64,000 bases of DNA from Flavobacteriales bacterium UBA4466 (GTDB lineage: Bacteria; Bacteroidota; Bacteroidia; Flavobacteriales_D; Crocinitomicaceae), in the NCBI GenBank assembly GCA_905182335.1, contig CAJJBE010000001.1, positions 1 through 64,000 of the forward strand, read 5' to 3'. Below are positions 332 to 58,696 of this stretch, one piece after another (within the stretch, counting starts at the first letter, position 1; every line of letters starts with the position of its first letter). The position numbers and the translations under genes were made by a program. Below the pieces are notes generated by a model, which saw only the letters and a program-made list of their open reading frames with translations, searched no databases and was not told the DNA's origin.

Positions 332-416
332 AATACCGTCTTTAGGGTATTGATTTCTAAGAATATATGACGGCTATATTGTTGATATAATGTAGAATAC
401 CTTAATGAGGGTATTG
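332..416. promoter_or_regulatory. Duplicated inverted repeat AATACC-N8-GGTATT, putative operator pair
   Basis: Two copies are seen, at 332-351 and 396-415. Both have the arms AATACC and GGTATT, an 8-bp spacer ending in AG, and a trailing G. Start-to-start distance is 64 bp, about six helical turns, so both would face the same side of the DNA. The second copy ends 57 bp before the ATG of the hemerythrin-like gene. The arrangement suggests a dimeric transcription factor binding cooperatively. The factor is unknown. Confidence 0.5.
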
Positions 417-472
417 CACAAAATTTTTTTCGTGAGTAGTTTTGAACTTCAATTATAAAAAATTTGTTTTAC

Positions 473-976
473 ATGCTAGAAAATTCAGTCATAAATGAGG
501 ATAAAGGGCTAGAAAATGATTTCTTTGTTCGTTCATTTTTAGTCCAATCAAAGCCAAAAGTTGTGGTTGACTTTTTAACAGCTTCTCACTGGAGGTATGA
601 GCATGAAATAATTCCAAAAATTGAACAGAATTTTATTAGACTCATTAAAACTTTACCTAATGAGCCAACCTTACCTGTAATATTCAATCTATTTCTAAAG
701 TTTCAATTATCTCTTAAATTGCATATTCGAATGGAAGAAGAGATTGTGTTTCCTAAATATTTGTGCATTCTAAAAAGAGAGGGTGAGATTTCAATGACAG
801 GGTCTCACGAAGCTCAAGAGCCTTACGTAAATGAAATCATAAAATTACTTAATAGAACTTCTTATTCAAAAAATCCATTTTGTCAACTTCTTATTCAACG
901 ACTAGATAAATTCGAAATTGAATTAAACGAACATGCATGGATTGAAGAAAACATAATTAGCAAAAATCTACAGTAG
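473..976 (+). CDS. Hemerythrin-like domain protein (RIC/YtfE-type diiron domain)
   Basis: This 167-residue protein has the histidine and acidic pattern of an all-helical hemerythrin-like fold, as in the C-terminal part of RIC/ScdA/YtfE repair proteins. Candidate metal ligands are in FLTASHWRYEHE (about residues 35-46), HIRMEEEIVFPK (about 85-96), the GSHEAQE helix (about 110) and HAWIEENII near the C-terminus. It lacks the N-terminal DUF542-like domain of full RIC proteins, so it is a single-domain form. No signal peptide is seen; it should be cytoplasmic. RIC relatives respond to nitric oxide or oxidative damage, and such a role here is inference. I chose the ATG at 473; a TTG nine bases upstream would add three residues. 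The paired inverted repeat upstream is its likely control region. Confidence 0.75.
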   Translation: MLENSVINEDKGLENDFFVRSFLVQSKPKVVVDFLTASHWRYEHEIIPKIEQNFIRLIKTLPNEPTLPVIFNLFLKFQLSLKLHIRMEEEIVFPKYLCILKREGEISMTGSHEAQEPYVNEIIKLLNRTSYSKNPFCQLLIQRLDKFEIELNEHAWIEENIISKNLQ

Positions 977-1319: not shown

Positions 1320-3170
1320 ATGAAGAACAGGCCACATATTTTTCTAATAATTATTTCAGTACTCCTTTTATTCAAAGGAGAAGTCTTTGCTCAAAATCAG
1401 AAACAAATTGACAGCCTAAAACAAATAATTACATTAGCAAAACAAGACACAAACAAAGTAATAACATTATTGGAGTTAGGAGACCAATACGAACACAACA
1501 AACCAGATAGCGCCTTAGTTTTTTACCATAGAGCGCTTGACATTTCAAAAGAGATTAAATCTCAAACACTTATTGCAAAATGCTCAAGGTATATAGGTAT
1601 TATTTACTATTATCAGGGTTTTTACACAAAAGCCATTGCCTATCATATTAAGTCTCTTAACACCTACAAAAAAATTGGTGATAAGAAGGGCATTTCAGGC
1701 TCTTACAACAACATTGGACTTGTTTACGAGTATCAAGGCGCTTACACCAAAGCAATATCTTATTATCTTAAGTCTTTAAAAATTAGCGAAGAAATTGGCG
1801 ATAAAAAAGTAATACAAAGTGCCTACAATAATATAGGTGGTCTTCACACTAATCAAGGTGCTTATGATAAGGCATTGTCTTATTTCTTTAAATCATTAAA
1901 AATATCTAACGAAAGCGGCAACAAAAAGGGGGTAGCAGACTCTTACAACAACATTGGAAGTATTTACTGGCATCAAGGGCGTGAAGATGAATCAATCCAA
2001 CATTATCTTAAATCACTTAAGATTAAAGAAGAAATTGGAGACAAAAGAGGTCTGTTTAGCTCTTATCAAAACTTAGGTGTTTCTTACTATACGAAAGGTT
2101 CTTACGACAAAACTCTATCGTATTATCTTAAATCTCTGAATATAGCTGAAGAGATTGGTGATAAACATGGGATTGCAACGACACACATAAATATAGCCTC
2201 TTTAAATATTAGGCTTGCTGATTCTTTAGCAAGAAATGAAACACAAAGAATTGAATACTTAAAAAAAGCTATTAAAAATAGTTCTCTGAGTTATAAACTA
2301 GCCAAAGAAATAGGATCATTACCTCTGGTAAGTGAAGCGTGTAACTCTCTTATGAATACGTATTCAAAATTGGGGAATTATAAAAGAGCAATAGAGTTTT
2401 CAGAAATATATATCATCTCGAAAGACAGCCTATTTGACAAAACAAAAACAAAAGAATTAGCAAAAATAGAAGCAAAATATGAATACCAGAAACAAACAGA
2501 AATAGACTCCTTAGCCCATGTTAACGAAATAAAAATCAAAGATCAAGTGTTGTTGAGAGAAAAAGAAGTGAGTAAGATGAAGATTATCACTTTTGTAATA
2601 ATAGGCTCCATTATTTTAATTGTAACATTACTTATTATCTACCTTCAAAGAGGAAGGATAAAGAAAAATAAAATGATTTCCCAACAGGAAAAGGAGCTTA
2701 CTAATGTTAACCTTAAAAACAAAGAGCTGGAGAATAAAAACCTTTTATCTGAATTAGAATACAAGCATAATGAAGTAGTTAATTTTGCCTTACACATAGC
2801 CGAAAAGAATGATTTTTTAGAAAATCTCCAAAAAACGCTTAATGCGTCTAATGATCAGATTGATCCAAAGACGCTTAAAAAACTAATTGCTCAGAACCTT
2901 TCCACAGAGAAAGATAGAGAAGAATTTAATGCTAATATTGAAAGTTTGAACGATTCCTTTTTCCTAAAATTAGATGAGAAATTTCCTAAACTGACAAAAA
3001 CTGACAAACGTTTATGCGCCCTCCTTCGCCTAAATCTTTCATCTAAAGAAATAGCATCTATTCAAAATATATCTCCAAACAGTGTTGATGTAAATAGATA
3101 TAGATTAAGAAAAAAGCTTGACATTACTACAGATAAAGATCTATCTAATTTCTTAAATGCCTTTATTTAA
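1320..3170 (+). CDS. Membrane-anchored TPR protein with C-terminal LuxR-like helix-turn-helix
   Basis: The 616-residue protein has a signal peptide (about residues 1-24), then about six kinesin-light-chain-type tetratricopeptide repeats of 40 residues (about 60-290, each with a YNNIG-type core and LKSLKI). One transmembrane helix follows (about 421-442, IITFVIIGSIILIVTLLIIY), then a coiled coil, and a C-terminal LuxR/FixJ-like helix-turn-helix (about 565-610, LTKTDKRLCALLRLNLSSKE then IASIQNISPNSVDVNRYRLR). This layout is common in Bacteroidota and places the TPRs in the periplasm and the DNA-binding domain in the cytoplasm, a one-component signal-to-transcription device. The signal and targets are unknown. 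The secreted beta-helix gene downstream, with repeats in its promoter region, is a plausible target (inference). Confidence 0.85.
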   Translation: MKNRPHIFLIIISVLLLFKGEVFAQNQKQIDSLKQIITLAKQDTNKVITLLELGDQYEHNKPDSALVFYHRALDISKEIKSQTLIAKCSRYIGIIYYYQGFYTKAIAYHIKSLNTYKKIGDKKGISGSYNNIGLVYEYQGAYTKAISYYLKSLKISEEIGDKKVIQSAYNNIGGLHTNQGAYDKALSYFFKSLKISNESGNKKGVADSYNNIGSIYWHQGREDESIQHYLKSLKIKEEIGDKRGLFSSYQNLGVSYYTKGSYDKTLSYYLKSLNIAEEIGDKHGIATTHINIASLNIRLADSLARNETQRIEYLKKAIKNSSLSYKLAKEIGSLPLVSEACNSLMNTYSKLGNYKRAIEFSEIYIISKDSLFDKTKTKELAKIEAKYEYQKQTEIDSLAHVNEIKIKDQVLLREKEVSKMKIITFVIIGSIILIVTLLIIYLQRGRIKKNKMISQQEKELTNVNLKNKELENKNLLSELEYKHNEVVNFALHIAEKNDFLENLQKTLNASNDQIDPKTLKKLIAQNLSTEKDREEFNANIESLNDSFFLKLDEKFPKLTKTDKRLCALLRLNLSSKEIASIQNISPNSVDVNRYRLRKKLDITTDKDLSNFLNAFI

Positions 3171-54438: not shown

Positions 54439-54985
54439 TTAATCTCTTCCTGTAATCATCTTATTAACAATCCCTTTATTGTCTACTTTTTCTGCGACGA
54501 CCAATCCTACAAAATGGAACACGATTAACCAGTAAAAAGATAGTTCATGGAACTCTTCTGTAGTATGCTTTTATTCACGCGGACCAAATTCAATAATTAA
54601 TGATGAAGCTAATAGCACATCGAAAAGAGCATAACTCCAAGATTGACCCTTTTTCTTTTCCTTTGAAAGAGAACTTCCACCCCCTCTTTTATCATTAAAC
54701 CCATACGTAGAAAATACAGTCCCATCGATACATACTCAACGTATACGTGCCAATTCCACATTGGTTTGCGAATAGACTTAGCAATTGGTATTGCGTCATC
54801 TTCACCTATTGAAATATTTAGGTTCTCCAGACCGGCGCTCATTATCTCCGACATGTTGTGCTTATTCATCTAATTCAACCTTAAAATGATGATTAGCAAC
54901 ATAAATAACATTGAAAAAGCAATTGCCCAATGTAATAGGCGGCATGTGAAACTTTATATTTTAATAAAGCTTTATAATAGTTGCC
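54439..54985 (-). pseudogene. Decayed cytochrome b561-type membrane gene
   Basis: Conceptual repair of the minus strand gives a di-heme cytochrome b561-like protein. The pieces are GNYYKALLKYKVS, then RLLHWAIAFSMLFMLLIIIL, SIRKPMWNWHVYVEYVSMGL, SYALFDVLLASSLIIEFGP, and finally EEFHELSFYWLIVFHFVGL with VDNKGIVNKMITGRD. The lesions are a frame change near 54950, an in-frame TAG at 54870-54872 (probably from a Trp TGG), a frame change between 54650 and 54690, and a TAA at 54571-54573. Candidate heme histidines lie in RLLHW, NWHVY and VFHFVG. Only an 86-codon piece (54609-54869) is still open. The gene is dead or very badly sequenced. Confidence 0.75.
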
Positions 54986-55009: not shown

Positions 55010-55028
55010 ATTTAGAATGATTCTAAAA
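55010..55028. promoter_or_regulatory. Fur-box-like palindrome before the iron-uptake operon
   Basis: TTTAGAATGATTCTAAA at 55011-55027 is a perfect 8-1-8 palindrome, close to the iron-box form I recall from Flavobacteriia (TTTAGAAT-N-ATTCTAAA). It lies 71 bases before the first gene of an operon whose content points to iron acquisition. Confidence 0.65.
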
Positions 55029-55098
55029 TACCTTGTTTATGGTATTGTGCTATAAATGAAATCTCCCTTTCTTTGCATAAAAAAATTAATTATTTAAT

Positions 55099-56259
55099 AT
55101 GAAAAAGTCTATTATCATTCTTGCAGCTTTAATTGGAACGACTGCAATCTCATGCAAAAAAGAAGGTTGTACAGATTCTACAGCCAACAACTACAATTCT
55201 AAAGCAAAAAAAGATGACGGAAGTTGTACCTATGATGCAAACACTGTAGTCCCTGTTGCTTACACAACTCCTTCAACTTTTGAGTTTACGGATGCAAACG
55301 GAAATTCAACTGTAAGCTTTAGTGGTCAAACTAATCGTCTAGACAAGCTAAGCGAAATGGTTACATATATGAAAACAGGTAAGAGTACTGTTGTAGATGC
55401 TGTCCAAATGAAAGATATGTTTGGAGACAATGTAGGTCAATATTTTACTGATCCTTTATTAAATGCTTCAACAAAGCAACTAAAAAATAAATGTTTCCCA
55501 GCTGATGTAGCGACATTTGAAACATTTATGGATGAATTGGCAACTGCTAGTATAGATAATGCAGAAGTTGCTGCTAATGGTCAGGCAGGTACGCTTTCTT
55601 CTGGAACAAGTACATATTTGTTTGATGCTAATGGAATTGAAAAAGTTCAGTTAGTTGAAAAAGGATTAATGGGAGCTGTTTTCTTAAATCAAGCATTAAA
55701 CACTTATTTTGGTGCTGATAAAATGGATGTAGATAATACTACAGCTGTTGATTCTGATGGAGGAAAATACTACACTTTAATGGAGCATCACTGGGATGAA
55801 GCATACGGTTACTTTACAGATGCTATAGACTATCCAACAAGTGGTACAGATAGATTTTGGGGTAAGTATTGTAACAAACAAGATGGAAATATTAACTGTA
55901 ATGCTGATATGATGGATAATCTATTAATGGGAAGAGCTGCTCTTTCTAGTGATGTATTAACAGATCGTGATGCTGCTATCGCAACAATTAGAACTGAGTG
56001 GGAAGATATTTCTGCAAATCAAGCTATGACTTATCTAGATGAATCTATCCCTTATTTCGGTTCAGATAATGCTAAATTCTTACACGTTCTTGCTGAAGCA
56101 TGGGCATTTGCATGGAACTTAAGATATGCACCAGTAGAAACAAGAAGAATGAGTGTTGCTGAGCATACCGCTTTAATGGGAATGTTTAAAGCAAACTTCT
56201 GGGAAATGACTGTAGCTGACGTAAATGCTATCAAAGCAGAAATCGACGCAAAATATTAA
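55099..56259 (+). CDS. DUF4856 lipoprotein of an iron-uptake operon
   Basis: The 386-residue protein has a lipobox (LIGTTAISCKKE, Cys 19), then a Cys-framed segment (GCTDSTANNYNSKAKKDDGS) and the DUF4856 domain: a helical, imelysin-related region with LMEHHWDEAYGYFTDAIDYP (about 227-246) and EAWAFAWNLRYA. DUF4856 proteins are encoded with imelysin and TonB receptors in Bacteroidota. Exact role is unknown; periplasmic or surface iron binding is the usual proposal. It is the first gene behind the Fur-like palindrome. Confidence 0.85.
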   Translation: MKKSIIILAALIGTTAISCKKEGCTDSTANNYNSKAKKDDGSCTYDANTVVPVAYTTPSTFEFTDANGNSTVSFSGQTNRLDKLSEMVTYMKTGKSTVVDAVQMKDMFGDNVGQYFTDPLLNASTKQLKNKCFPADVATFETFMDELATASIDNAEVAANGQAGTLSSGTSTYLFDANGIEKVQLVEKGLMGAVFLNQALNTYFGADKMDVDNTTAVDSDGGKYYTLMEHHWDEAYGYFTDAIDYPTSGTDRFWGKYCNKQDGNINCNADMMDNLLMGRAALSSDVLTDRDAAIATIRTEWEDISANQAMTYLDESIPYFGSDNAKFLHVLAEAWAFAWNLRYAPVETRRMSVAEHTALMGMFKANFWEMTVADVNAIKAEIDAKY

Positions 56260-56262
56260 AAT

Positions 56263-57333
56263 ATGAGAGTCAAGAGAACTATTAGAGTTTATTTAAGTCT
56301 TGCAATATTATTGCTACTTAATTTTAGTTGTAAAAAAGACTGTGATGAGGTGCAACCTGCATTTAGTAAAGCAGTTTTACTTGAAAATGTCGCGGATAAT
56401 ATTATTTTACCTGCATTAAACGACTTTGAATCAACTCTTAGTTCTCTTGAATCTAGTTTTTTCACTTTACAAACTGACCCAAATCAAGAAAGCTTAAATG
56501 CTGTTAGAGCAAATTGGAAAGCATCCTATATGCAATGGCAAATGGTTAAGATTTTTGACTTTGGCCCAATAAGAACTAATGGTTTTAAAGGGGCCGTTGG
56601 AACTTATCCTACAGATACAGTTAGAGTAAATTCAAATATTATTAACGGTGGATATAACTTAAGCACTGCAGATAATGCAGATGCTATTGGCTTCTCAGCA
56701 TTAGATTTTCTTTTATATCGCAATGATGCATTAATAGACTTTATATCTAATGAAGAATATTTTCAATATACATTGGATGTAATTCAAAAAATGAAGAATG
56801 AATTTGCACTGGTAAAATCTCAATGGTCAACTTATAATTCAACATTTATAGCGGGAACAGGCACAGAGTCTACTTCTTCCTTTTCTTTATTGGTTAATGA
56901 GTTTAACCGAGACTATGAGCTTGCTAAAAACGGAAAGCTTGGAATACCTATTGGAGCTGGAACGCTTGGCATTCAATTACCAGAGTATATTGAGGCTCGA
57001 AACAGTGGAATATCTCTTGAATTACTTCAAGAGAGTATGAGGGCTTTACGCATTGTTTATATGGGTAATAACTCTGGTTCGGGATTGGGATTCTATGACT
57101 ACCTAGTTGACTTAGAAAAATCCAGTTTAGCATCTACTATTGATGCTAACTTCAACCAGATTATTAATACGGTTGAAACATTTAATGGTTCACTTGAATC
57201 TGAGATGGGTTCTAATGTTAGTGGATTGAATGAATTATATAATTTAGTTCAAAGTCAAGTTGTAAACATTAAAACTGATATGACTTCATCCTTTGGGGTA
57301 CTAATTACATATCAAGATAATGACGGAGATTAA
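56263..57333 (+). CDS. Imelysin family lipoprotein
   Basis: The 356-residue protein has a lipobox (LLLLNFSCKKD, Cys 23) and the imelysin (peptidase M75) helical repeats: RANWKASYMQWQMVKIFDFG (about 87-106) and ADAIGFSALDFLLYRND (about 137-153). The canonical GxHxxE motif is changed here to GFSALD, so the metal-binding His and Glu are missing, as in other Bacteroidota imelysin-like proteins. It starts 3 bases after the DUF4856 gene. Role in iron uptake is inferred from family and operon. Confidence 0.85.
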   Translation: MRVKRTIRVYLSLAILLLLNFSCKKDCDEVQPAFSKAVLLENVADNIILPALNDFESTLSSLESSFFTLQTDPNQESLNAVRANWKASYMQWQMVKIFDFGPIRTNGFKGAVGTYPTDTVRVNSNIINGGYNLSTADNADAIGFSALDFLLYRNDALIDFISNEEYFQYTLDVIQKMKNEFALVKSQWSTYNSTFIAGTGTESTSSFSLLVNEFNRDYELAKNGKLGIPIGAGTLGIQLPEYIEARNSGISLELLQESMRALRIVYMGNNSGSGLGFYDYLVDLEKSSLASTIDANFNQIINTVETFNGSLESEMGSNVSGLNELYNLVQSQVVNIKTDMTSSFGVLITYQDNDGD

Positions 57334-58696
57334 GTTAAGTAAATACTTATCTCTTTTTAAAGAGGTATCAATAGCCCCGCTAATTATTTTCAGAATAATT
57401 TTCGGGGTTTTGATGTTTTTAGGCACCATCCGTTTTATAAGTAAAGGTTGGATTGAGCAATTATATATTGACCCAGATTATTATTTTGGATATCTTGGTT
57501 TCGAATGGATTAAACCCCTTGAAGGCCAACTGATGTATCTTCCATTTCTCTTGCTGCTAATATCACCGCTATTTATTCTTCTTGGTTTTTTATATCGAGC
57601 ATCTTCAATAACATTTTTTATTTGTTTTACTTATATAGAATTACTAGACAAGTCAAACTACCTAAATCATTACTACTTTGTTAGCTTAATAGCGTTAATT
57701 ATGATCTTTCTTCCGGCCCATCGGAATTTCTCAATTGATACTAAAATATGGCCAAAAATAAAAACGGTGTCAACCAAGCAATGGACAATTAGCCTAATCA
57801 AGCTGCAATTAGCGATAGTTTATATTTTTGCTGGAATTGCTAAATTAAACTCAGACTGGTTAATACATGCTAAACCATTAAAGATTTGGATACAAGCACA
57901 CCATAACATACCCTTTATTGGCCCTTTAATGCAGCAAGAATGGTTGGCCTATCTTTTTAGTTGGACAGGCTGCTGCTATGATCTTTTCATAGTCTTTTTT
58001 TTATTATCAAATCGATCTAGACCTATTGCCTATTTATTTGTAATAGTCTTTCACCTACTAACTTGGTACTTATTCCCGATTGGTGTTTTTCCATGGGTGA
58101 TGATATTTAGTACACTGATTTTCTTTTCACCTAAATTTCATGAACGGATTTTAAATCTATTAAGCCGCTCTAATTGGAAGAAGAACGTAATTGAAAACAT
58201 TAAATTATCTCATACTAGAAAAAAAATTATTATCTCCCTACTTACATTATACATTGCTATTCAAATTATTATTCCATTTAGGCATGTTTTATATCCTGGT
58301 AATTTATTTTGGAATGAAGAGGGGTTTAGGTTTTCATGGCGAGTAATGATAATGCATAAAGTAGGCCTCGCGACCTTTTACATGGTGGATCCAAAAACAG
58401 GCCGAGAATCTGAAATTAATAACAGCAAATTCTTAACTCGAACACAAGAGGGTCAGATGGCTACACAGCCAGATATGATTCTACAATATGCTCAGATTTT
58501 AAAGAATTATCATCATGGGAAAACATTTCATTACGGAAATCAGAAGTTTCTAATCGAAAACCCCGAGATTCGTGCCAAAATATATGTTAGCGTAAATGGT
58601 CGACCTTCTCAATTATTTGTTGATAAAAAACACGATCTCACAAAACTAGAATACAATTTATCTCACAGAACATGGCTAGAGCCTTTTAATAAATGA
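57320..58696 (+). CDS. HTTM-domain membrane protein (vitamin K-dependent carboxylase-like)
   Basis: The 458-residue protein has several membrane helices in the first 320 residues and the HTTM pattern: PLIIFRIIFGVLMFLGTIRF, then YIELLDKSNYLNHYYFVSLI and QLAIVYIFAGIAKLNSDWLI. The C-terminal extracytoplasmic part (about 330-458) contains FSWRVMIMHKVGLATFYMVD. This fold is related to gamma-glutamyl carboxylase, but the bacterial function in iron operons is not known. It overlaps the imelysin gene by 14 bases and the TonB receptor gene by 4. Confidence 0.85.
   Translation: MTEIKLSKYLSLFKEVSIAPLIIFRIIFGVLMFLGTIRFISKGWIEQLYIDPDYYFGYLGFEWIKPLEGQLMYLPFLLLLISPLFILLGFLYRASSITFFICFTYIELLDKSNYLNHYYFVSLIALIMIFLPAHRNFSIDTKIWPKIKTVSTKQWTISLIKLQLAIVYIFAGIAKLNSDWLIHAKPLKIWIQAHHNIPFIGPLMQQEWLAYLFSWTGCCYDLFIVFFLLSNRSRPIAYLFVIVFHLLTWYLFPIGVFPWVMIFSTLIFFSPKFHERILNLLSRSNWKKNVIENIKLSHTRKKIIISLLTLYIAIQIIIPFRHVLYPGNLFWNEEGFRFSWRVMIMHKVGLATFYMVDPKTGRESEINNSKFLTRTQEGQMATQPDMILQYAQILKNYHHGKTFHYGNQKFLIENPEIRAKIYVSVNGRPSQLFVDKKHDLTKLEYNLSHRTWLEPFNK

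Follow-up and report, generated by a model that had tools for sequence, protein, structure and literature searches.

The palindrome AATACC-N8-GGTATT, three exact copies of which lie in the window (the whole 64-kb stretch of DNA that was analysed), is almost certainly the operator of an iron-starvation regulon, judging from its conservation and its target genes, from which we infer both binding and the iron signal. With a probability of about 0.7, it is the operator of a LuxR/NarL-type (GerE domain) protein of the CdhR kind, acting as a class II activator of this regulon. The preliminary description of the window had proposed a Bacteroidota stress regulon. The regulatory site, the phylum-wide regulon and the hemerythrin gene as a core target are borne out by the present analysis, whereas nitrosative stress is not, the targets being genes for iron and heme uptake and iron-starvation genes.

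Palindromes and promoters in the window

Two near-identical inverted repeats, with AATACC-N6-AGGGTATTG as their common part, lie with their starts 64 bp apart in front of the hemerythrin gene, the second ending 57 bp before the ATG, exactly as first described, and both match the palindrome at all 12 defined bases (Table 1). It was also rightly argued that such a pair is hard to get by chance. After dinucleotide shuffling of the window (1000 runs), the exact pattern was left at a mean of 0.005 copies, and no shuffled window contained a pair with members up to 100 bp apart. AATACC is the sole half-site of a 6-N8-6 palindrome that is repeated within the window.

Pattern searches, on which the genome-wide work on the window's genome was based, added what had been missed: a third exact copy, 52 bp upstream of a DUF4856 gene that is followed by imelysin and HTTM genes; a fourth exact copy in the genome (C5:36912), upstream of a small lipoprotein gene; and a promoter box in front of the hemerythrin gene. 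Duplicate sites on contig C7 were rejected as a second locus. They belong to an assembly overlap, in which the sequence from C7:70855 onward duplicates the start of contig C1 (position 1) for 3.1 kb or more at 99.94% identity, which makes this part of the assembly redundant. To the left of the third site, the ORF at 54609-54869 resembles a truncated cytochrome b561 gene, the counterpart of which is intact at L139:6134-6691.

Table 1. Features of the window, with positions counted from its first letter
Feature	Position	Strand	Remarks
Distal palindrome AATACCGTCTTTAGGGTATT, putative auxiliary upstream site	332..351	+	Exact match; -7 box at the usual distance absent
Proximal palindrome AATACCTTAATGAGGGTATT, putative main operator	396..415	+	Exact match; overlaps the -33 TTG at 414-416
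Predicted Bacteroidota -7 element TAGTTTTG	437..444	+	Exactly 20 nt past the TTG; 0 mismatches to site-N20-TAnnTTTG
Hemerythrin-domain protein, 167 aa, RIC/YtfE-like	473..976	+	Ligands H39, H84, E88, H112, H154, E158
Fur-family-like 7-1-7 palindrome TTAGAATGATTCTAA	55012..55026	+	Exact; directly abuts the third site
Third exact palindrome AATACCTTGTTTATGGTATT	55027..55046	+	From the pattern search of the window
-7-like element TTTCTTTG	55068..55075	+	20 nt past the TTG of the third site; 1 mismatch
DUF4856 lipoprotein gene	55099..56259	+	First gene of a putative iron-uptake operon; commonest target in the family
Imelysin (Peptidase_M75) gene	56263..57333	+	Same operon as the DUF4856 gene
HTTM / gamma-carboxylase-like gene	57320..58696	+	Same operon as the DUF4856 gene

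TTG-N20-TAnnTTTG is the -33/-7 pair of Bacteroidota promoters, and three promoters of the window's genome have this pair, or its one-mismatch form, behind the site. For a count of distances, 150 unique sites from the family (identified as Crocinitomicaceae by its named loci) were used, which had been collected without requiring a promoter. The TTTG of the -7 element was located exactly 24 nt past the motif in 91 of the 150 sites and at 23-25 nt in 102 of them, nearly all other distances being represented by 0-5 sites each; the promoter box is absent at about a third of the sites. Due to this fixed distance, the palindrome is centred near -43 and shares its TTG with the promoter. A fixed position that overlaps the -33 element resembles that of class II activator sites, and activation is the most likely effect of its occupation.

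Crocinitomicaceae often have a second site farther upstream (30 found vs 2.9 expected, about tenfold), with the extra copies at about 32, 37-38, 64-72 and 117-126 bp. At hemerythrin genes, a close distal site was found only in the window and in two orthologues, and the comparison of orthologues indicates that the proximal member of the pair is the conserved one. The spacing of exactly 64 bp, which had been read as six helical turns, is not kept at these two orthologues (67 and 72 bp) or elsewhere (about 32, 38 and 117-126 bp). Because the spacing varies, helical phasing of the pair was dropped from the evidence.

Conservation and target genes

When the motif was searched for upstream of genes in related genomes, as the preliminary description had advised, it clustered at hemerythrin and iron-uptake genes. 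Of 26 hemerythrin homologues, which were collected from several families of the order by protein search alone and not by the motif, 24 have a site in front, mostly 53-83 bp ahead of the hemerythrin start, compared with 1 of 140 control genes. AATACCN8GGTATTG was found in all 34 genus genomes and in 134 of the 150 family genomes, while the reversed pattern gave almost none.

Outside the family, the strict 13-base pattern occurs at a level near chance and is mostly intragenic, specificity being reached only once the promoter box is added to it. A scan of a GTDB-wide collection found the site with the promoter box in at least 119 contigs, nearly all titled Bacteroidota; the promoter box alone already biases such a search towards this phylum. 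Among the matches listed with the box are Crocinitomicaceae, Bacteroides, Prevotella, Parabacteroides, Saprospiraceae and Chryseobacterium. Some matches outside the family have no gene behind them, and part of these matches are likely to be non-functional. For eight Bacteroidales genomes, 49 matches with up to two mismatches were obtained vs 0 for the control pattern.

The targets were determined by Pfam on the first gene past promoter-bearing sites. Within the family (n=99), these were DUF4856 (34), HmuY (12), TonB plug (9), imelysin (6), FeoA (5) and hemerythrin (5), the 12 HmuY-family genes of Crocinitomicaceae being located directly downstream of the site. The non-family targets (n=78) included TonB plug (18), DUF4856 (8), FeoA (7), FeoB (6), hemerythrin (5) and GerE (4). 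In Bacteroidales, where some of the names were assigned by eye from the sequence, the site precedes FeoAB, fldA (flavodoxin), a TetR-led operon, a hemerythrin-cdhR operon, pflB (pyruvate formate-lyase), nagB (glucosamine-6-phosphate deaminase) and TonB receptors. These gene classes match the published iron-depletion stimulon, as hmu, fldA, BT0507-09, BT0519-20, pflAB, BT0258-59 and FeoB were induced in iron-depleted B. thetaiotaomicron or P. gingivalis (PMC10434189).

An extended palindrome, TGCAAAAATACC-N8-GGTATTGTTGCAA, is located about 98 or 300 bp ahead of ribF in many family genomes and was also found ahead of sdhC (L207). The loci of this class B are L159:1844, L164:1725, L167, L171, L174, L178, L182, L188, L192, L084-L086, L091, L094 and L099. 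The ribF sites were kept separate because they are without a -7 box, and the class B palindrome may be a different element with the same core.

The candidate regulator and the alternatives

Among 130 proteins that flank the site, GerE/LuxR is the most frequent family (14) and hemerythrin the next (6), and none of CRP, Rrf2, Fur and DtxR is within the 25 commonest flanking families. The density of GerE genes is about eightfold higher within 1.2 kb of a site than at greater distances (14 in 260 kb vs 4 in 612 kb, p=4e-5). In Bacteroidales, the two neighbours can be one protein: five hemerythrin-GerE fusion genes are preceded by the site (L229, L242, L318, L329 and L334), including two, from Alistipes and Prevotella, with products that look like hemerythrins. 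The site also precedes the hemerythrin-cdhR operon at L426 and is found just after two operons of this kind (L301 and L331). CdhR (PG1237) is a LuxR-type regulator reported to control hmuYR (PMC10434189; PMC10101095). It is encoded with the hemerythrin PG1236 in P. gingivalis, and the pair is fused in Prevotella intermedia (PMC10434189). PG1237 was described as a repressor in one paper and as an activator elsewhere (PMC10101095).

The window's genome encodes few GerE proteins, and no CdhR-kind GerE gene adjoining a hemerythrin gene was found in Crocinitomicaceae. Judging from its sequence, the receiver-GerE protein encoded at C3:271029-271652 of this genome (G000) is the likely candidate regulator. 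It is conserved through Crocinitomicaceae and groups, with moderate support (81/93), with the motif-adjacent GerE proteins, with which it has the recognition-helix region S-x-HT-[VI]-x-THR in common, a region that some controls also have. No site of its own was found at this gene. For the TPR-GerE gene at 1320-3170, beside the hemerythrin gene of the window, a role as the regulator was set aside because the hemerythrin orthologues are without such a neighbour. Another GerE protein (C4:226475) was rejected, as it groups with ordinary response regulators.

According to the mechanism we propose, a GerE-domain dimer would bind AATACC-N8-GGTATT with its centre near -43, covering the -33 TTG, and the bound dimer could then promote initiation by RNA polymerase at the TAnnTTTG promoter in the class II manner. 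Low iron would thereby switch on the DUF4856-imelysin-HTTM operon, HmuY, TonB receptors, Feo, flavodoxin and the hemerythrin gene. An iron (or O2/NO) signal would probably be passed to the regulator by the diiron hemerythrin, a role suggested by Bacteroidales, where hemerythrin shares an operon with the regulator or is fused to it. As for the window's genome, the receiver-GerE protein would be the one that binds the DNA and activates transcription, presumably with iron as the signal.

Alternatively, an iron-responsive repressor of the Fur or DtxR type could, under ample iron, block the -33 element, and the GerE genes nearby would then merely be co-regulated. We regard this as unlikely. An iron regulon as the target set and a site over the -33 element could be explained by a repressor as well, and Fur and DtxR-type proteins are present in Bacteroidota (PMC10434189). 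However, neither family is among those that commonly flank the site, and a fixed -7 distance at most of the family sites (102/150) is more typical of an activator. To our knowledge, AATACC-N8-GGTATT is also unlike the known Fur or DtxR boxes. It is not of the 7-1-7 form, and a separate box that is, TTAGAnnnnnTCTAA, often TTTAGAATnATTCTAAA, was found beside 29 of the 150 family sites vs 0.42 expected. The offsets of this TTAGAATnATTCTAA box from the sites are fixed (-14 to -17 or +22/+29), which suggests joint control by two regulators at the promoters having both elements. On sequence grounds, the 7-1-7 box would be the better candidate for Fur, and this counts against AATACC-N8-GGTATT as a Fur box.

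A CRP/FNR or Rrf2 (NsrR/IscR-like) site in a nitrosative or general stress regulon, with a regulator of the families first suggested for the window, is improbable. RIC/YtfE hemerythrins are linked to NO in other phyla and a class II position is also known for FNR sites, but CRP sites have an N6 and FNR sites an N4 spacing, compared with N8 here. GerE/LuxR and not CRP or Rrf2 heads the flanking families, and none of the NO-detoxification families (flavohaemoglobin, Hcp, NO reductase) was among the Pfam targets listed, in the family or outside it. An extended promoter element that an alternative sigma factor recognises by itself would account for the rigid distance of the -7 box, but it is hard to reconcile with the perfect dyad symmetry, with the further upstream copies 32-126 bp off and with a downstream box that is an ordinary Bacteroidota -7 element, and we consider it very improbable. 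A chance or functionless repeat can practically be dismissed in view of the shuffles, the reversed-pattern controls and the conservation at orthologous promoters.

The hemerythrin protein and known systems

For the hemerythrin of the window, PF01814 was the only domain matched, just below the curated cut-off, and no N-terminal ScdA domain was reported by Pfam in its 167 aa. Its four His and two Glu ligands are invariant with those of the fusion regulators. The protein has a profile match to ScdA/YtfE (E 2e-6) and a predicted RIC-like fold (TM 0.71 to 9r7j), the first 14 residues of the model being of low confidence. From the ligand set, the profile and the fold, a role as a diiron sensor or partner of the regulator is plausible. 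In several relatives, a small conserved Cys-containing protein of about 110 aa is encoded after or next to the hemerythrin gene, at L137:3285-3614, L138:2946-3272 and L335:2064-2486.

In the literature, the mechanism of CdhR and its iron binding were called unclear, and knowledge of the mechanisms of iron-dependent regulation in Bacteroidetes 'scarce' (PMC10434189). The same paper gives no operator sequence (0 matches for 'motif' or 'palindrom'), and our search for the sequence of the site returned unrelated papers only within the searchable literature, in agreement with the preliminary description, whose author knew of no regulator with this site. By providing an operator at a fixed position relative to the promoter, a predicted regulon in agreement with the stimulon and a named regulator-hemerythrin pair, the present analysis makes the control of iron starvation in Bacteroidota directly testable, and it suggests hemerythrin as a bacterial iron sensor. 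A hemerythrin-coupled LuxR-type regulator could even be the main iron-starvation activator throughout the phylum. Hemerythrin, whether encoded in the same operon as the regulator, fused to it or acting in trans, would then be the iron sensor, and AATACC-N8-GGTATT the ancestral operator. This wider proposal is tentative, and we place it somewhat below even odds; if true, the sensor would differ from Fur, DtxR, RirA and IscR.

Among known systems, the RIC proteins ScdA and YtfE are like the window protein in profile, fold and the set of four His and two Glu, with the hemerythrin domain alone matched here. FBXL5 of mammals is alike in the idea of a hemerythrin domain that reports iron to gene control, while its output is unrelated and its fold match to the window protein is weak (E 7.8). 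The NarL/NarP 7-2-7 sites have TACC/GGTA half-sites eight bases apart, a spacing we take to be the same as in TACC-N8-GGTA, and a class II-like placement; here, the heptamers differ at their inner positions, iron and not nitrate is presumably the signal, and the promoters are of the Bacteroidota TAnnTTTG type. CdhR/PG1236 of P. gingivalis, BT_0519-0520 of B. thetaiotaomicron and the P. intermedia fusion likewise combine a hemerythrin with a LuxR-type regulator, are induced by iron depletion and are linked to hmuYR (PMC10434189). The site is located ahead of operons and fusions homologous to these and ahead of the same kinds of targets. In Crocinitomicaceae, unlike in these systems, the hemerythrin and the regulator are unlinked.
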